Part shown: positions 2,673 through 33,250 of the stretch, in pieces
Position numbering within the stretch: position 1 is the first letter of the stretch
How the letters are laid out: every line of letters starts with the position of its first letter
Source: Nitrospina sp.
GTDB taxonomy: Bacteria; Nitrospinota; Nitrospinia; Nitrospinales; Nitrospinaceae
Assembly (NCBI GenBank): GCA_020430445.1
Contig: JAGQJZ010000008.1
Location: 1 to 53,600, forward strand
Direction of reading: 5' to 3'
DNA: 53,600 nt
Program-made: the position numbers and the translations under genes
Notes under the pieces: model-generated
Databases searched by the model: none
Told to the model about the DNA's origin: nothing
The model's input: only the letters and a program-made list of their open reading frames with translations

Positions 2673-4298
2673 TTACTCCTGCGTTTTATTTTCCGATGGA
2701 GTGGGAAGCAGGTCCTTTTTTGCCGCCAGTTGCATGCGCGAAAGGAAGGCGAGAATAAAGGTGAGCGCCAGGCAGAACCAGCTGAAGACGTCGCCAAGTG
2801 AAGTGTAAAATGTGGGGCCGCCCGAACGCGGGTGGATGTCGCCGGTGACCACGGCGCTGGTGAACAGTTCCGTCGGCTGGTGGATGGTTCCGTCGGCGGT
2901 GATAATGCCGGTGATGCCGGTGTTGGCGGCGCGGACGATGGGCACGCGGTTTTCGACCGCGCGCAGGGCGGCGATGGCGATGTGCTGGTACGAGGCGGCG
3001 CTCTTGCCGAACCAGGCGTCGTTGGTGATGTTGACCAGGAAACGCGCGCCGTTTTTCACCGGCTGGCGCACAAGATCGGGGAAAATGATTTCGTAGCAGA
3101 TGTTGACGCCGAAGGGCTGGCCTTTGACTTCGAAGACATCGTAGGCGTCGCCGCGCTGGAAATCACCGATCGCCATCACCATCTTTTCCACAAAGAACAA
3201 AATTTTACGAAACGGTACGAATTCGCCGAACGGCACGAGGTGAATCTTGTCGTACCGCCCTTTCGGCATGCCGGTGGCGTCGATGAAGTAGGCGCTGTTG
3301 TAGTAGAGAACCTCGCGTTTTCCTGCGGCATTTTCGGTGCGGATGGCCGACGGGGCGCCGATGAGTACCGGAACGCCGGTATGTGCAACGTGGTTGAGCA
3401 CGCGTGTTGTGCCTTCCGGTTCGATGCCGAAATAGAACGGCGTCGCCGCTTCGGGCCAGACGATGAGGTCCGGCTTGGCCTGCGCCGCTTTTTCCGCCAG
3501 ATTGAAATAGCGTTGGAGGACCTCGCCGCTGTGCCGCGGGTCCCATTTCATCTCCTGTTTGATGTTGCCTTGCAAAAGCGAGACTTTAAGTGGAGCACCG
3601 GCCTGGTTCGAGGCTTCGGCGTATTGTTTCAGCGTGAAGTTGCCATACCCCCAGCAGGCGAGGAGCACCGTAAGCGTGGCTCCCGCAACGGGCCAGCGCA
3701 GGCGGGCGAAGCGGGAATGATGGGTGATTTCCGGATGACAGGCGTAGAACAGGCCGGAGTTGACGAGCACGATCAGCGCGGTGACGCCGTACACGCCGGT
3801 GAATTCGGCGATCTGGATGAGTTCCGGTTTGGAGTATTGCGAGTAACCGAGGCTGAGCCAGGAAAAGCCGAGCACTTCGGGCGTGGAGCGCAGGTATTCG
3901 AGTCCGGTCCACAGGACGGGGGTCAGGAGAAAAAAGAACGCCGGGTTGCCGCGCGTCAGGTATTTGGCCAGCCCGCAGAACAGGGCCAGGTATGCCGAGA
4001 GGTAAGCCACCAGCAGGAGCAAAACCGCCCAGGCCACGGGCAGCGGCAGGTGACCGTAGTCGACCATGGTGTTGACGACCCAGCTCAGGGCCACGGAGTA
4101 AAACACGATCCCGGCCGTAAACCCTTGTAACGCCGCCTTTTTAGGGCCCAGGGGATGGATGGCGAAATACAGCGGGATGAGGGCGAACAGGGCCAGCGGG
4201 GCCCAGTCGAACCGGGGAAATGAAAACGCTAAAAGCAGCCCGGACAGGGCGGACAGGCCGAGTCGCTTTGCGTCAGCGGAATGGAGTTGTACCTTCAC
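2673..4298 (-). CDS. lnt: Apolipoprotein N-acyltransferase
   Basis: The 541-residue inner-membrane enzyme transfers the third acyl chain to the N-terminal Cys of lipoproteins, the last step of lipoprotein maturation. The N-terminal half has several hydrophobic helices (about 14-215). The C-terminal half is a carbon-nitrogen hydrolase domain with the Glu-Lys-Cys triad visible: E283 in LIVWPEAATPF, K351 in GRYDKIHLVPFGEF and C401 in VNICYEIIFP. A last helix lies near 505-525. Length and order fit the family. It is transcribed divergently from the BFD-like gene, with about 60 bases between the starts. Several lipoproteins in this window would be its substrates. Confidence 0.95.
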   Translation of the reverse strand: MKVQLHSADAKRLGLSALSGLLLAFSFPRFDWAPLALFALIPLYFAIHPLGPKKAALQGFTAGIVFYSVALSWVVNTMVDYGHLPLPVAWAVLLLLVAYLSAYLALFCGLAKYLTRGNPAFFFLLTPVLWTGLEYLRSTPEVLGFSWLSLGYSQYSKPELIQIAEFTGVYGVTALIVLVNSGLFYACHPEITHHSRFARLRWPVAGATLTVLLACWGYGNFTLKQYAEASNQAGAPLKVSLLQGNIKQEMKWDPRHSGEVLQRYFNLAEKAAQAKPDLIVWPEAATPFYFGIEPEGTTRVLNHVAHTGVPVLIGAPSAIRTENAAGKREVLYYNSAYFIDATGMPKGRYDKIHLVPFGEFVPFRKILFFVEKMVMAIGDFQRGDAYDVFEVKGQPFGVNICYEIIFPDLVRQPVKNGARFLVNITNDAWFGKSAASYQHIAIAALRAVENRVPIVRAANTGITGIITADGTIHQPTELFTSAVVTGDIHPRSGGPTFYTSLGDVFSWFCLALTFILAFLSRMQLAAKKDLLPTPSENKTQE

Positions 4299-4609: not shown

Positions 4610-4826
4610 AGCTGACAAAGCCCACGCATTATAGAATTATTTCCCCTGCCTCACCAGTTTTCAATTCGCGGAAAACCGGATTTTAAGATTCCATGCGATA
4701 CAGCGTGGTTGGGAACGGTGTGCCGGTGACGGTTCCCCGGCGTTTTTTGGCCTGGAATGTGTTATCCTAGAAGCAGTCAAGTTTGATTTAAGAGCAGTCT
4801 CTTTCCCACTCCATCAGATATTTGTT

Positions 4827-5195
4827 GGGGGCGATCAGGGTTCGACGGGAGTAATGAGACGAAGGTGGCATGTACGGGACGCCGTTGGCCCGTTAAAAAA
4901 CGGCACTATTCCATAATCGCCAACGATTATGAAATCGCTGTAGCTGCTTAACTAACCCTTAAGCCAGTTACCGTCTTCTCCTCTCCCGTCCACGGGGGGG
5001 ATGCGGACGTCAGCTAAGTGGACTGGCCGCGCGGTTTCCGTTTCCGGATCGCGGGGTGAGAACTTAGGAAACTGGCCGGCATGGAATCCTGTCTGTGGGA
5101 GTTAGTGCCGGTGAGATCCAGAACATAGACTAAACATGTAGAAGCCTTCTGTTGACGACTTTCGGACGGGGGTTCGATTCCCCCCGCCTCCACCA
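4827..5195 (+). ncRNA. ssrA: Transfer-messenger RNA (tmRNA)
   Basis: The 5' strand GGGGGCG (4827-4833) pairs with CGCCTCC (5185-5191), including a G3-U wobble, the alanine identity determinant. The T-arm GGGGG-TTCGATTC-CCCCC precedes it, and discriminator A plus encoded CCA end the gene. The tag frame starts at GCC 4919 and reads ANDYEIAVAA followed by TAA (4949-4951), so the full added tag would be AANDYEIAVAA. The order is that of a standard one-piece tmRNA. A 7-bp hairpin (CTCCACC/GGTGGAG, 5188-5208) overlaps the mature 3' end and may assist termination or processing. tmRNA with SmpB rescues stalled ribosomes. Confidence 0.97.
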
Positions 5196-5240
5196 CCTTT
5201 CGGTGGAGTAGTTTCTTAGCAACGTAAATAATCTCGCGCG

Positions 5241-5365
5241 CTCTATCTGCAGAATCGATCGGCGGGCCGTGTTGCCGGCCCCGCGCCCAACGGCTCCTTG
5301 CCGGAGGGACAGTTTTTTGGCATTGTGAATTTCTTCATTGGGTTTTACCGCAGAATCGGGCGGGT
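5241..5365. repeat. Dispersed intergenic repeat (one partial and one full copy)
   Basis: The tmRNA is followed by 350 bases without a gene. Here 'CGGCTCCTTGCCGGAGGGA' (5291-5309) is followed about 30 bases later by 'GGGTTTTACCGCAGAATCGG' (5339-5358). The same two blocks in the same order and at similar distance occur at 14382-14455, 52765-52837 and 52863-52950. A half copy, 'TCTGCAGAATCGATCGGCGGG', lies at about 5245-5265. The first block is itself a small inverted repeat (CTCC/GGAG). Confidence 0.55.
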
Positions 5366-5546
5366 TGCCACGGCTCCCTCTCCAGCCAGGTTTTTGGATT
5401 AGGCTTCAACGCCTCCATGCTTCGATGTCTTTAAGAATTTCATTTTCAGTGATTTTCCTCTTTATGTGTTAGGATAGCGGAAGTCTGATTTTCTGAATAC
5501 GGGAATTCGTTTTCCTTCTGCAAACCCGCCTTCCCCTGAGTGTCTC

Positions 5547-6236
5547 ATGGTTGATCCCGCCATCTTTGCAAACGCCTACAACAATGGAACGCTGACCCGC
5601 CCTACCGTGTTTGTTCAGGACCTGCTCAACAACACCCGCAAGACCCTGCGCAAATACCCCATCAATATTGGCGATGACGGTACGCTGGGAAACTCCGGCA
5701 TCACCAACCGTTGTTTCGTGACCAACGGCAATGCGGGCCTGAGGCCGGGGAAAATTTTGCGGACCAAGCACATGCATGCGGCGGAGTCGTTCAATTTCAA
5801 TTTGACCAATCTCGGCCTGCCGGTGGGGCATCAAATCTCCGTTTACCGGGTGGCCGCCGTTGTTTCGAACGTAGCGCCGAGTTGGTGCGTGCTTCCACGC
5901 AATGGAGGTCCCAATTTAATGATCACGGTTCAATTGACCGGTTGCGCCGTGATGGTGGCGAATGGTCCAAATCCCGGTGATATCAAGGTGGCGCATCTAC
6001 AGCCGAACGCTCAAAATCACCAGACCGGGGTGCAGTTGCACAACCATTTGCTTGGCCAGAACTATCTGGCGGTGTACGGTCGCGGCCGGTATGACCACCG
6101 CGACGCCAATGGTCTGGAAGACCGGCGGGTGGCGATAATCGGGGTGCGGCGCAACCGGCGCTGGAAAATTTACGCGCAGAAAAAAGGAACCGTCTTGAAC
6201 GACATCCGCAGCGTTCACCGGATTTATCCCCCTTGA
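5547..6236 (+). CDS. Unrecognised protein with an LxGC...His deamidase-like signature
   Basis: A 229-residue protein that I cannot place in a named family. It has no signal peptide or membrane helix. The central sequence reads VQLTGCAVMVANG with Cys133, and a histidine in KVAHLQPN follows at position 150. An LxGC motif in a beta-rich region with a His about 15-17 residues later marks the CNF1/BLF1/CheD group of glutamine deamidases, so a catalytic Cys-His pair is plausible. CheD proteins have this same spacing of 17. The rest of the chain, including a basic tail (VRRNRRWKIYAQKK), resembles none of them to my eye. It is monocistronic, between tmRNA and the hut operon. An unrelated family with a chance motif remains possible. 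Confidence 0.6.
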   Translation: MVDPAIFANAYNNGTLTRPTVFVQDLLNNTRKTLRKYPINIGDDGTLGNSGITNRCFVTNGNAGLRPGKILRTKHMHAAESFNFNLTNLGLPVGHQISVYRVAAVVSNVAPSWCVLPRNGGPNLMITVQLTGCAVMVANGPNPGDIKVAHLQPNAQNHQTGVQLHNHLLGQNYLAVYGRGRYDHRDANGLEDRRVAIIGVRRNRRWKIYAQKKGTVLNDIRSVHRIYPP

Positions 6237-6418
6237 GTTTTCACCCACATACATTCTGCAGAGCCTTCAATATTCCTCAGGACAAGGTTGTGTTACCGGG
6301 GCTGGTGAAAAATTTCTGGACCTGGAGTTCCATAAGAGAGAACCTGTTCTCAAGGGAATAAGGAAAGGGACCCGCCGCAAGGGCAGCCCTTCCGCCCAAA
6401 CAAAACAGGGGTTCCGGT

Positions 6419-7333
6419 ATGGGCGACGTCAAACTGGCAGACATCATGCAATCGGGCGAATCCGGCGATGTGGTCGTGCTGGGATTCCCCTATGATGAAG
6501 GCGTGGCCCGCAACGGCGGACGCCCGGGAGCCCACCTTGGGCCGGAAAAATTTCGCGCCTGGCTCAAGCGCTTCGGCTCCCTGCACAATCCGGAAGTTGA
6601 AACCGATCTCACCTCCCTGAAAGTTTCGGACGCGGGCGATGTCCCTCCCGGCCTGTCGCTTGAAGAAGCCCACACACATCTCACCGGCAAAGTAGCGGTT
6701 GTTCTGCAGGCGGGAGGCATTCCCTTCGTTATAGGCGGCGGCAATGATCAGTCTTACCCCAATGCCCGTGCGCTGATCGAAACTCGTTCCGGGCAACAGG
6801 TCGGGGTCATCAACATCGACGCCCATCTCGATGTGCGTCCTCTCAATTCGGGACAGGCGCACAGCGGTTCGCCGTTTCGCCTGTTGCTAGAAGACTCGCG
6901 TTTTTTCGCTGACCGTTTCATTGAATTCGCCGCCCAGGGCAGCCAGTGCAGCCGCGAGCACGCAAATTTTGTGCGGCAGCGTAACGGCCGCATCGTCTGG
7001 CTGAACGAGATGCAAAAGATGGGTCCGGCGGCGTCATTCGATTCCGCATTGGAAGAACTGGGCAGCCGCTGCGATGCCCTGTTCGTCAGTTTTGACCTCG
7101 ATTCGGTGGCGGCCGCACACGCTCCCGGCGTTTCCTGTCCTGGCGTTCTGGGACTGAGCGCCCGCGATGCGATGAAGATCGCCGAAACGGCGGGGCGTCA
7201 TCCCGTGGTTTTCCTTTTTGATCTGTCGGAATACAATCCTTTAATAGAAGAAGAGCGTACGGGCAGGCTGGCCGCCGGTCTCTTTTACCATTTCTGCCTG
7301 GGGGTCGCCGCGAGAAAGGAGGGTCGACCATGA
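6419..7333 (+). CDS. hutG: Formimidoylglutamase-like protein of the arginase/ureohydrolase family
   Basis: The 304-residue protein has the ureohydrolase fold pattern: GFPYDEGVARNGGRPGAHLGP, then GGGND (106-110), NIDAHLDVR (D134, H136, D138) and SFDLDSV (D226, D228). Five of the six usual dinuclear Mn ligands are present. The first ligand, normally His in GG(D/G)H, is Asn109 here. It would hydrolyse N-formimino-glutamate to glutamate and formamide, the last step of one histidine degradation route. Its stop overlaps the hutU start in an ATGA, so the two are translationally coupled, and the context strongly supports the Hut role. An AGGGG sits about 7 bases upstream of the start. Confidence 0.85.
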   Translation: MGDVKLADIMQSGESGDVVVLGFPYDEGVARNGGRPGAHLGPEKFRAWLKRFGSLHNPEVETDLTSLKVSDAGDVPPGLSLEEAHTHLTGKVAVVLQAGGIPFVIGGGNDQSYPNARALIETRSGQQVGVINIDAHLDVRPLNSGQAHSGSPFRLLLEDSRFFADRFIEFAAQGSQCSREHANFVRQRNGRIVWLNEMQKMGPAASFDSALEELGSRCDALFVSFDLDSVAAAHAPGVSCPGVLGLSARDAMKIAETAGRHPVVFLFDLSEYNPLIEEERTGRLAAGLFYHFCLGVAARKEGRP

Positions 7334-27676: not shown

Positions 27677-27908
27677 TGTCTTTAAACCACGGTTGAGTCA
27701 GAATTCCATGGGTAGGTCGTTTGAAATGTATTGGACCTTTCAACCGGATCTTCTGGAAACCGGAGCCTGCCGGTTGGGTGGACACGGGCCGAGCCTGCGA
27801 TGTCCCTCGGAAAGTCGGGGGGGATCTTGTTCCATTCTACTGTACAATCTCTTCTTTTCCAAATAGTTATTGCACCTCCGAAACCCCGCCGTTACAATGA
27901 CTTGTTGT

Positions 27909-28613
27909 ATGAATGAGCAAGACGAGGGCAGGCTTTACGTGGTCAGTACCCCGATCGGTAATCTGGGGGATATCACCCGCCGGGCACTGGAAATTCTACA
28001 GCGGGTCGACCTGATCGCCGCAGAAGACACCCGCAGGACGCGGATTCTGCTGAATCATTACAGCATCGAAACCCGGCTCACCAGTTACAATTCCTACAAC
28101 AAAATGGCACGGGGCCGGGACATCCTCCGCCAGCTTTCAGAGGGCAGGCAGGTGGCCCTTGTTTCCGACGCGGGGACGCCCGGAGTTTCCGATCCCTTGT
28201 TTCATCTGCTGAAGGACGCGCTGGAGGCCGGAATCGGGGTCGAAGCCGCGCCCGGCCCTTCGGCCCTGTTGTCCGCGTTGGTGGTTTCGGGCCTGCCCTG
28301 CGACCGGTTTTTTTTCGAGGGGTTTCTTCCCCGTAAAAAAGGGAGGAAGACCCGCCTGCAATGGCTGGCAGATTTACAGTGTACCGTGGTATTGTTCGAA
28401 TCGCCGCAACGGCTGGGGCGAACACTGGAAGACATTCGGACGGTGTTCGGTAACCGCCGCGCCGTTATCGCGCGCGAGATGACCAAGCTTCACGAGGAAA
28501 CCCTGCGCGGACCGCTGGAAGAGCTGATCGCCGGTCACGCCGGACGCAAGTGGAAAGGGGAAATCACCCTGATCATTTCCGGTCATGTCATCGAGGAGGG
28601 AGAAACGCTCTGA
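27909..28613 (+). CDS. rsmI: 16S rRNA (cytidine-1402-2'-O)-methyltransferase
   Basis: The SAM-dependent tetrapyrrole-methylase-fold enzyme methylates C1402 of 16S rRNA. Signatures are LYVVSTPIGNLGDITRRALEIL, AAEDTRRTRILLNHY, VALVSDAGTPGVSDP, GPSALLSALVVSGL and FEGFLPRKKGRK. The ATG at 27909 gives 234 residues; ATG 27897 is possible and neither has a good ribosome site. The product is shorter than E. coli RsmI (286 residues) and lacks the small C-terminal domain. Its TGA overlaps the ATG of the next gene by one base, coupling it to the ParA-like ATPase. Confidence 0.93.
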   Translation: MNEQDEGRLYVVSTPIGNLGDITRRALEILQRVDLIAAEDTRRTRILLNHYSIETRLTSYNSYNKMARGRDILRQLSEGRQVALVSDAGTPGVSDPLFHLLKDALEAGIGVEAAPGPSALLSALVVSGLPCDRFFFEGFLPRKKGRKTRLQWLADLQCTVVLFESPQRLGRTLEDIRTVFGNRRAVIAREMTKLHEETLRGPLEELIAGHAGRKWKGEITLIISGHVIEEGETL

Positions 28614-29926
28614 TGGGAATTGTTTCTGTAATCGGACCCAAGGGAGGAATCGGAAAAACCACGCTTTCGATCAACACCACCGCCGCCCTCACCCGGGCCC
28701 TGAAGCAACGGGGGTCTTCAAACAGCGGCGTTTGCCTGATCGACCTCGACCTGCGGCTGCCGACCATCTCCAGCCTGCTCGACAGCCACCCGCGCAAAAC
28801 CTTTTTCGATCTGTTCAACACGCTGGCCAACCAGACCTACCAGGTGGATTTCCTGCGCTCCCTGTACCAGGTGCTGACCCGGTTCCAGGCGCATCTCGAC
28901 GGTGAAGCGGATGAAGAGCGGCTGGCGCGGAGCTTTGGCTTGTACAAGAGCCTCAACGCCGACCTGTTCCATTTCAGCGAATTCGAGTTCGGTGATCTTT
29001 TGCATGAGCTTTTCCTGCTGCGGGGCGAAGTCCATTCCCTGCAGGATATTCAAAAGCTGGATTTTATCCTGAAGCGGCTGGATTCGGCGGTGCTCCGTTC
29101 GATGGTGCACGCAAGAGAGGCGGACTCGCGGCCGTCGGCGGATGAATACATCAACTACATTGAGGAATACGGTTTCAGTATTATCGGGGGGGAGGTGCCG
29201 GTTCTCGGCAAGCGCGTCCACCGCAGGCGGATCAATGAACCCGCGTTCCTGCTCCTGTTTCTGGAATTCCTCAACCAGGTGTTCGACCGGTTCGAGTACA
29301 CCCTGCTCGACACGCCCGCCGGCGGGGTGAACCACCTGTCTTCGTTGATGAACGTGATCGACCAGGTTCTGTTCGTTTTCGACCTGAGCAACTCGATCGC
29401 CGTCAACGGCAGTATCGACGCGCTGCACTCGTTCATCGACTACTACGAGGACTTCTGTGCGGATTACCAGGCCGGTGCGCTGACAGGCCTCGACCGTGAA
29501 TTCGCCAGCCGCATGACGGTGAAGGAAGGCGAGGAAACGTTTCTTGCTTCCATGCAGGCCAAGAAGTTCGGCATTCTGTTCAACCGGTCGAGCGAATCGC
29601 GGGAAGTGGTCGAAGCGCTGGGCCGCCTGCGGGAATACCTCGACACGCTGGATAAATATGAAACCTACAAGGACCGCATCCATATCGTCGGCCTGTTGCC
29701 CAATCATAAGGTCATCAACATCACCAACAATCGCGGCGCATTGTTTTACAATAAGGACATGGGGCTCACCGCGCGCATGACCGGTATTGCCGAGAGCATC
29801 CTCAACCGTAACGCGAACTGTCCGACGCTTGCGTCGAGCGACAAGGATATCCTAAAATACCTCGCCCGCCCCGGTGGCGGAGGCTTTTCCACTCCTCTGG
29901 TCCGTCTGGCCAGTGCCTTCGGTTGA
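28613..29926 (+). CDS. MinD/ParA-like P-loop ATPase with a large insertion
   Basis: The start at 28613 overlaps the rsmI stop. The 437-residue product opens with MGIVSVIGPKGGIGKTT, the deviant Walker A with signature Lys10 and Lys15. CLIDLDLRLPT (about 42-52) fits switch I/A', and YTLLDTPAGG fits the Walker B/switch II region of ParA/MinD. Between them lies a helical insert of about 170 residues not seen in ordinary ParA, and the protein is longer than MinD (~270). No ParB, MinE or parS-like signal is nearby. Bactofilin and a YkuD-type protein follow, so it may position an envelope structure. Function is inferred only. Confidence 0.8.
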   Translation: MGIVSVIGPKGGIGKTTLSINTTAALTRALKQRGSSNSGVCLIDLDLRLPTISSLLDSHPRKTFFDLFNTLANQTYQVDFLRSLYQVLTRFQAHLDGEADEERLARSFGLYKSLNADLFHFSEFEFGDLLHELFLLRGEVHSLQDIQKLDFILKRLDSAVLRSMVHAREADSRPSADEYINYIEEYGFSIIGGEVPVLGKRVHRRRINEPAFLLLFLEFLNQVFDRFEYTLLDTPAGGVNHLSSLMNVIDQVLFVFDLSNSIAVNGSIDALHSFIDYYEDFCADYQAGALTGLDREFASRMTVKEGEETFLASMQAKKFGILFNRSSESREVVEALGRLREYLDTLDKYETYKDRIHIVGLLPNHKVINITNNRGALFYNKDMGLTARMTGIAESILNRNANCPTLASSDKDILKYLARPGGGGFSTPLVRLASAFG

Positions 29927-29931
29927 TTCCA

Positions 29932-30498
29932 ATGGACATCCCAAAATTAATGGTATTGACGGCGGACCAGTTTCGCCTGCTTCTGGGAGCGGACCCGGAC
30001 GGTTATTACGAACGCGATACCCGCGATCAGTTGCTGCGCCTGATCCAGAAACTGGAAAACTTTCAGAAAGACTGTTCACGGCCTGAAATGGACCTGTACC
30101 GCCGGCACCAGCGCAAGGCGCTGGGAATACGCCTTCCGGCGGGCAGCGAGACCCGGCATCCGGTGGAAATACCCGGGGGATTGCTGGTGGAGGGTTTGCA
30201 GCAGGGGGACGTCGACCTGGGGGGAGGTCTGGTGGTTGCGGACAGCGGCGAGGTAACGGGCAATATCACCGCCGCCTCGGTGGTGTGCCGCGGCAAAATC
30301 AAGGGGGACATCCGGGCGCGGGGAACGGTCCACCTGTGCGCCGACGGTCAGGTGGAGGGCCGCGTGGAGGCGGCCACCCTGCAGATCGAAGACGGGGCGC
30401 GTTTCACCGGCCACTGTCACCTGGAACCGGAGTTGAATTCCCCGTCTCCCAGCGCCTGGGCCAGCGTGAAGAAACTGCTGGGCATGAGGACTCCCTGA
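29932..30498 (+). CDS. Bactofilin with an extra N-terminal domain
   Basis: The ATG at 29932 lies 5 bases after the ATPase stop and gives 188 residues. Residues about 75-165 are the bactofilin beta-helix: GGLLVEGLQQGDVDLGGGLVVADSGEVTGNI, VVCRGKIKGDIRARGTV and ADGQVEGRVEA, repeating every 17-18 residues. These proteins polymerise into cytoskeletal filaments that organise cell-wall enzymes. The first 60 residues are not part of a normal bactofilin. They align without gaps to the start of the next protein (shared K5 L6, P22 xG24, Y26, R28, T30 R31, L34, I38, K40 L41, L55 Y56, Q60). This suggests a common docking domain. Confidence 0.85.
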   Translation: MDIPKLMVLTADQFRLLLGADPDGYYERDTRDQLLRLIQKLENFQKDCSRPEMDLYRRHQRKALGIRLPAGSETRHPVEIPGGLLVEGLQQGDVDLGGGLVVADSGEVTGNITAASVVCRGKIKGDIRARGTVHLCADGQVEGRVEAATLQIEDGARFTGHCHLEPELNSPSPSAWASVKKLLGMRTP

Positions 30499-30584
30499 CT
30501 CCCGATCCAATTTTGCACCCTTTCGGCCCGGGCGAATGCGTTGGTGGTTCACAGTCCTGACGCCAGCTTCTGGATCATTCAACC

Positions 30585-31739
30585 ATGGACGCGAACAAGC
30601 TCAACATCCTTTCCCTTACGGAATACAACCTGATCGCGAACAAGAACCCGCAGGGCAGTTACGACCGGGCGACGCGTGAAAATCTGTACGCGATCATCCA
30701 CAAGCTGCATGAAAACTTCAACACCCTGTCGGGTCTGGAAAACCGTCTTTATGGCAAGTTTCAGGCGGCGCGGTTCGGGGCCCTCGAGGACAAGGACAAA
30801 AGGGTCGCCCGCGAGGTGGTGCGTTACCGGCTCTCAAACCGCGTCAAGCAGTGGATTCAGGGCACGGTTCTGGCCGGGCTCTGCCTGACGCTGGTGGGTA
30901 TCCTGATTTATCAGGTTTTGCTCGACGACAATTCACGGCGCAAGGTGGACCTCGCCTGGTACGAACAGCTCAACAAGATGGGGCTGGTGTCGAAGGAGGA
31001 ACTGGCGAAGATGGAAAAGGACCTCACCATCACCGCCAGCAAACTGAAAAAAACGCGTGAGGAAAATCAGGAACTGGCGGCAACGGTGGAAGGCATGATC
31101 CTCAACAACCGGGTCGCGGAAAACCTGAAATACATCCTCAAACAGATCTACAAAGACCCGCGGACCCGGTACGAGCAGGTCGCGGGCGGCGTTTCGCTTC
31201 AGTTCGCGGGCCGGGAGCTGGCGCGTTACCTGTCGGACCCGGAACGGTGGTACCTGCTGGGGATCATCGAGACGGGTGTGATCAAAGTGATGTATAACAA
31301 CGACCAGATTCTGGAAATCGAGGCCATATTCGGACGCCAGGGGGAGGAAACCCCGCTCGGCGAATACGAGGTGAAGAACAAGGTGTTTAAGCCGGCGTGG
31401 TACAAGAGAGAGCAGATCGACGGCAAGGTCCGGGTCCGCAAAATTCCGTTTGGCCACCCGGACCACGAGATCGGCCACTGGTGGCTCGGCCTCAAGCGGC
31501 TGGGCCCGCCGGTGCCGGGGAGCTACGGGATCCATGGAGTCAACATCGCCCGCTTCAATGAGTTCTTCAAAAAGAACTTCGACTGGCGCAACGGCAGCGC
31601 GGGGTGTCCCAATATTCAGGAATGGTACCTGGAGTTTCTGGGAAGGGTGATTCCGTTGGGGACGCCGGTCAATATCGTTCCGCGCGAAAAATGGAACGGC
31701 AAGGGGGCCGTGACCGGCCAAATGGTAGGCGCGTTGTGA
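30585..31739 (+). CDS. Membrane-anchored YkuD-type L,D-transpeptidase-like protein
   Basis: The 384-residue protein has a cytosolic N-terminus (1-88) homologous to the N-terminus of the bactofilin just upstream. One membrane helix (about 90-112) and a coiled coil (about 135-170) follow, then a periplasmic YkuD domain. The active-site pattern is YGIHG (H317) followed by S338-A-G-C341-P-N. The usual motif is S/T-H-G-C, so the His before Gly is Ala here while the nucleophile Cys and the upstream His remain. The family cross-links or modifies peptidoglycan. The layout links a cytosolic scaffold domain to a periplasmic wall enzyme across the membrane. An 86-base gap separates it from the bactofilin. 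Confidence 0.85.
   Translation: MDANKLNILSLTEYNLIANKNPQGSYDRATRENLYAIIHKLHENFNTLSGLENRLYGKFQAARFGALEDKDKRVAREVVRYRLSNRVKQWIQGTVLAGLCLTLVGILIYQVLLDDNSRRKVDLAWYEQLNKMGLVSKEELAKMEKDLTITASKLKKTREENQELAATVEGMILNNRVAENLKYILKQIYKDPRTRYEQVAGGVSLQFAGRELARYLSDPERWYLLGIIETGVIKVMYNNDQILEIEAIFGRQGEETPLGEYEVKNKVFKPAWYKREQIDGKVRVRKIPFGHPDHEIGHWWLGLKRLGPPVPGSYGIHGVNIARFNEFFKKNFDWRNGSAGCPNIQEWYLEFLGRVIPLGTPVNIVPREKWNGKGAVTGQMVGAL

Positions 31740-31876: not shown

Positions 31877-33250
<1,374 letters not shown>

Follow-up and report, generated by a model that had tools for sequence, protein, structure and literature searches.

We describe here a gene cluster of the bacterial order Nitrospinales in which three adjacent genes encode a MinD-class ATPase, a bactofilin and a YkuD-family enzyme anchored in the membrane, and in which the bactofilin and the enzyme begin with homologous domains. 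We lean towards reading it as an order-specific envelope module, with the ATPase working with the membrane YkuD enzyme and setting the place or the timing of enzyme action. Positioning of wall synthesis is, as we infer it, the best reading of the module; the genes and their domains, the topology given by charge bias, the shared N-terminal domain (NTD), the synteny, the joint loss of two genes and the uniqueness of the enzyme are direct observations. In the 53,600-nucleotide stretch of Nitrospina sp. DNA that was analyzed (the window), the genes run rsmI–ATPase–bactofilin–YkuD–argH, all on the plus strand, and the start and stop codons of the three central genes were checked. The features are as follows:

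27870–28613, + strand: rsmI (16S rRNA methyltransferase), conserved upstream flank (TIGR00096, 237 bits; synteny)
28613–29926, + strand: MinD-class ATPase with helical insert, 437 aa (PF01656/PF13614); its start overlaps the rsmI stop
28634–28663, + strand: deviant Walker A box GPKGGIGKTT, ATPase residues 8–17 (alignment A6)
28802–29119, + strand: insertion domain of the ATPase, entirely helical, with its helices between residues 64 and 169 (AlphaFold [AF2] secondary structure; structural alignment)
29309–29326, + strand: ATPase switch II DTPAGG, residues 233–238, MinD-type (33-sequence alignment)
29885–29923, + strand: C-terminal amphipathic helix of the ATPase, candidate membrane-targeting sequence (hydrophobic moment; AF2)
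29932–30498, + strand: bactofilin BacB, 188 aa, with an extra N-terminal domain (PF04519)
29932–30132, + strand: shared NTD of BacB (hhalign, profile match)
30163–30417, + strand: predicted bactofilin polymerisation domain of BacB (Pfam PF04519)
30585–31739, + strand: YkuD protein, 384 aa, bitopic, with NTD, transmembrane (TM) helix, coiled coil and YkuD domain
30585–30785, + strand: shared NTD of the YkuD protein, placed in the cytoplasm by prediction (charge bias flanking the TM helix)
30867–30923, + strand: TM helix of the YkuD protein (hydropathy; AF2 model)
30993–31106, + strand: long periplasmic helix of the YkuD protein, residues 137–174, coiled-coil candidate (AF2)
31287–31676, + strand: YkuD domain with invariant His317 and Cys341 (SYGIHG...GSAGCPN; PF03734, fold, alignment)
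31877–33250, + strand: argH (argininosuccinate lyase), conserved downstream flank (TIGR00838, 648 bits; synteny)

Coordinates, codons and Pfam domains bear out an earlier note on this DNA, which had described three consecutive same-strand genes for an ATPase, a bactofilin and a YkuD protein. That note had also spoken of a single locus of three; the adjacency of the trio holds, but it does not stand alone, being flanked by rsmI and argH, with parA-parB-bacA directly ahead in most relatives.

Next, we evaluated the arrangement across 77 Nitrospinota genomes, 64 from the order Nitrospinales and 13 others of the class. The ATPase was present in 44 of the 64 order genomes and in none of the 13 remaining class genomes (a weak match in G048 was taken as ParA). 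The order rsmI-ATPase-bacB-YkuD-argH was kept at ~38 loci examined, bacB being missing in some, with an identity of the ATPase and YkuD proteins across loci of roughly 51–82% (51–62% outside the genus). Gene order retained at this level of divergence indicates that the arrangement is not due to chance, and the co-occurrence of the three genes as neighbors, which the earlier note had made a test of its proposal, proved conserved order-wide. A second bactofilin gene, bacA, lies just ahead of rsmI in most loci and is preceded by parA and parB wherever upstream sequence was read. The window’s own genome has parA-parB-bacA and the module on different contigs: there, an rsmG-parA-parB-bacA cluster occupies positions 1005–3998 of L054 (contig C194), i.e., the part of the ancestral cluster split from the module. 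The same genome also encodes, at 4741–6786 on the minus strand of L055 (contig C77), a 681-aa protein in which a bactofilin domain precedes a TM-like segment and then an extended array of TPR-like repeats, as judged by eye.

The ATPase passed two Pfam thresholds, both barely (PF01656, 27.7 bits; PF13614, 27.4 bits; KGGIGKTT, DTPAGG). Within alignment A6, KGG and GKTT were invariant, with P9 replaced by H and I13 by V in some relatives, and the DTPAGG switch II was invariant across 33 aligned ATPases. The protein carries the KGGxGK[ST] box, the DxPAG switch II and the fold of the MinD/ParA deviant Walker A superfamily. In structural comparisons of its AlphaFold model (pLDDT 83.4), the nearest folds were FlhG (Z 23.5), FleN and E. 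coli MinD (Z 21.5). The alignment to FlhG/MinD spans residues 1–398 with only ~240 residues aligned, and the helices at 64–169 are inserted ahead of switch II; the deviant-Walker-A ATPase with a large insert that had been read from the letters alone is thus recovered as a helical insertion within the FlhG/MinD fold (AlphaFold pLDDT 83). At the C-terminus, the amphipathic helix displayed a mean hydrophobic moment of 0.54, a median shuffle p of 0.024 and a net charge of +1 to +3 over 33 sequences; it is modelled as a helix, yet with pLDDT < 50. The ATPase scored far under every NCBIfam cut-off, including the MinD equivalog TIGR01968 (30.9 bits against 212.9). We also considered a Get3/ArsA-like reading of the insert, which was left as a weak rival, PF02374 (Get3/ArsA-type) matching only at E 0.25. 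Overall, the protein resembles MinD, FlhG and FleN in its deviant Walker A box, DTPAGG switch II, fold (Z 21–23.5) and predicted C-terminal amphipathic helix, but differs from them in being ~20% identical over aligned residues, in its extra helical domain, in its linkage to a wall enzyme and in belonging to a phylum without detectable MinC. Specifically, MinC (PF03775) was found in none of the 77 phylum genomes and in 6 of 14 controls, so that division-site placement in these bacteria must use something else.

The YkuD protein scored 42.4 bits against PF03734 (cut-off 23.4), residues 217–366 of its AF2 model matched B. subtilis YkuD (1y7m) with Z 15.9, and His317 and Cys341 were invariant among YkuD relatives; domain, fold and catalytic pair are thus those of the YkuD family. 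Pfam detected YkuD only in this protein, with no M23 peptidase domain, and a PDB search with its sequence returned nothing credible. Its hydropathy peaks at 2.43 over residues 95–113 (model helix ~85–112), and the flank towards the N-terminus is net positive, which supports a periplasmic YkuD domain and a cytoplasmic NTD. One TM helix and this charge bias agree with the transmembrane protein with a periplasmic YkuD-like domain proposed previously. The AF2 helix at 137–174, the coiled-coil candidate, is partly modelled at pLDDT < 50. YkuD domains can act as L,D-transpeptidases or L,D-carboxypeptidases, e.g., Csd6, Pgp2 and Bd1075, and an Arg lies two residues after the Cys in most L,D-transpeptidases (PMC8938487). 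Here this position holds an invariant Asn343 instead, which makes the reaction of the YkuD protein uncertain, and Arg at Cys+2 is no requirement for the PF03734 family overall. This protein is the sole PF03734 member in every module-bearing genome except G004, with two, and G012, with two module copies; among Nitrospinales genomes lacking the module, none encoded a passing PF03734 protein.

BacB is a bactofilin by its PF04519 score (76.5 bits, cut-off 27.9), with relatives 26–71% identical. Its first ~65 residues are homologous to those of the YkuD protein (hhalign probability 99.7%, E 8.2e-26; blastp identity of the two window proteins, 38%), with no match for the other domain pairings or for the ATPase. 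This domain was overlooked in the first reading of the DNA, and we rate it as the strongest link in the module. A profile of the NTD matched the BacB copy at E 1.5e-25 (the window’s BacB being itself in the profile) and yielded ~2 matches per genome, in BacB and the YkuD protein, along with two marginal extras at E 1e-3 or weaker. Across the 77 genomes, this profile search thus placed the NTD only in BacB and the YkuD protein, and only in genomes of the order. No Pfam family matched it at E ≤ 1, and nothing credible emerged from a PDB sequence search. We take the NTD to be a previously unrecognised, putative docking-type domain common to a bactofilin and a wall enzyme. The BacB NTD is also kept in G056 and G057 (91–94 bits), two genomes without the ATPase and YkuD genes, so that its partner cannot be those two proteins alone; a further partner is perhaps the NTD itself or BacA.

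Presence and absence across the order separate the three genes. An ATPase gene accompanies an intact YkuD gene in 43 of the 64 order genomes, and both are absent or broken in 19; for 8 of these the stretch from rsmI to argH was not found, and absence there rests on incomplete assemblies. One-sided cases are limited to G042 and G044, both at contig ends. In G044, where no ATPase was found, an ORF near the contig end (L146, 414–1259) fuses BacB to what looks by eye like a cyclic-nucleotide-binding domain, either genuinely or through misassembly. On a tree of RsmI and ArgH (46 rows, quick method, SH-aLRT support), the joint ATPase/YkuD state changes 8 times, twice with bacB left behind. In five genomes (G029, G030, G034, G058 and G065), the interval from rsmI to the argH that follows it contains no module gene. 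In G049, the first ~30 ATPase codons and the last ~90 YkuD codons remain as a scar, and G048 has lost the ATPase and has a broken YkuD gene. These decay remnants between rsmI and argH (L150 of G049, 6656–7038, ATPase and YkuD; L149 of G048, 3284–4160, YkuD alone) form a natural loss series. In G045/G046 and G056/G057, bacB is kept and the ATPase and YkuD genes on either side of it are gone, so that a single deletion cannot explain the joint loss. Conversely, bacB alone is missing in G026, G031, G036 and four genomes of genus g14. Since ATPase and YkuD change together and bacB is lost or kept alone, the distribution of the genes indicates that the former are probably functional partners forming the core, and bacB a dispensable accessory. 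The joint function proposed for the trio in the earlier note is partly supported: the conserved neighbourhood, the shared NTD and the joint loss of ATPase and YkuD favour a functional linkage, but not an indivisible trio, the bactofilin being both lost alone and kept alone.

We propose that the ATP-bound MinD-class ATPase is probably held at the membrane through its C-terminal helix, where it may cycle, and that it most likely decides the site or the timing of YkuD enzyme action, with spatial control over wall remodelling as the proposed outcome. The cytoplasmic NTD of the enzyme would be the handle by which it is held, docking on the ATPase and/or the bactofilin, and the NTD copy on BacB may bring a bactofilin scaffold into that assembly or set it in competition with the enzyme for one partner. 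Bactofilin would be an optional scaffold in ATPase-controlled wall editing. A more specific version, in which a MinD-class ATPase from a phylum with no detected MinC patterns the cell’s only L,D-transpeptidase-type enzyme along the membrane via a new cytoplasmic docking domain also carried by the bactofilin, is one that we put forward tentatively, as possible rather than probable.

Other explanations share part of this evidence. The ATPase may instead act as a switch or assembly factor driven by ATP, which would activate the YkuD membrane protein, insert it or keep it stable irrespective of its location, with BacB as a loosely associated scaffold. The strict coupling of ATPase and YkuD and the optional BacB would fit such a role, and helical inserts in P-loop ATPases of the MinD/ParA-type superfamily can act as client-binding parts, Get3/ArsA being an example. 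However, structural comparison places the protein nearest to FlhG, FleN and MinD (Z 21–23.5), which are spatial regulators, the shared NTD on a polymer-forming bactofilin points to localisation, and a TM helix near the N-terminus makes a Get3-like tail-anchor route unneeded; we consider this account doubtful. That the three genes are unrelated passengers of an ordinary housekeeping operon between rsmI and argH is already unlikely, and we give the idea very little credence: the genes on either side do have housekeeping roles, and neighbours can disappear together simply through their proximity, but two of the proteins have the NTD in common, ATPase and YkuD were twice lost around a kept bacB, and the genes are retained order-wide at 51–62% identity outside the genus.

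The position of the module directly behind parA-parB-bacA in most relatives raises another alternative, namely that it serves chromosome segregation, extending the parAB-bactofilin locus and coupling origin position to the wall, as BacNOP/PadC with ParA in Myxococcus. In M. xanthus, bacM directly follows parAB, and ParABS is organised by BacNOP (PMC5703909). Both systems combine a bactofilin with a ParA-superfamily ATPase and show a parA-parB-bactofilin order, but the second ATPase of Nitrospinales belongs to the MinD class and is linked with a wall enzyme, and a PadC-like protein is absent, with a ParB-like domain detected by Pfam in none of the three module proteins. Moreover, parA-parB-bacA is intact where the module was lost and sits on a separate contig in the window’s genome, so that a segregation role appears improbable to us.

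ATPase-controlled placement of the enzyme can also be set against known wall systems. In BacA-LmdC of Hyphomonas and Rhodospirillum, the bitopic M23 endopeptidase LmdC is bound to bactofilin via its cytoplasmic tail (PMC10945521). As in the architecture described there, and here by prediction, a bactofilin gene adjoins that of a bitopic wall enzyme with a cytoplasmic N-terminus, a TM helix, a periplasmic coiled coil and a C-terminal catalytic domain. The Nitrospinales enzyme differs in being a YkuD rather than an M23 protein, in that its cytoplasmic part is a folded domain common to the bactofilin, and in that a MinD-class ATPase is the strict partner and the bactofilin optional. With Csd6, Pgp2, Bd1075 and L,D-transpeptidases, it shares the YkuD fold and the invariant His and Cys; unlike most L,D-transpeptidases it has an Asn two residues past the Cys, and unlike Bd1075, an exported periplasmic protein with a signal peptide (PMC8938487), it is membrane-anchored with a cytoplasmic domain. 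A contig scan for the module returned full-length matches only in Nitrospinota, other matches spanning the P-loop only. The NTD profile had no match in 20 other genomes (a set without a positive control), and ATPase-profile matches in these 20 were set aside as generic, e.g., an FlhG-like protein with a different N-terminus. Across 395 genomes of a deltaproteobacterial phylum, the YkuD-protein profile matched the catalytic domain only, never the NTD. Since these scans sample part of known diversity, distant relatives are possible. In the literature searched for bactofilins with ParA, MinD or YkuD (titles, abstracts and excerpts), there was no description of a locus that unites a bactofilin, a MinD-class ATPase and a YkuD enzyme anchored in the membrane.

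It is already established that bactofilins bind wall hydrolases and that MinD/ParA ATPases position cell machinery. What is new is the ATPase–bactofilin–YkuD module with its shared NTD, which hints at an undescribed way to place a sole YkuD-type enzyme, and the NTD offers a concrete docking hypothesis. Cultured strains differ in shape, from helical to short curved rods and slender rods (PMC8026999), and the module is present in G010. Because the YkuD enzyme is the only one of its type in almost all module genomes, removal of one gene would show the role of L,D-type wall editing, making this role addressable in Nitrospinales, major marine nitrite oxidisers. Should the more specific version above hold, the module would represent a novel form of spatial control over wall chemistry, driven by an ATPase.
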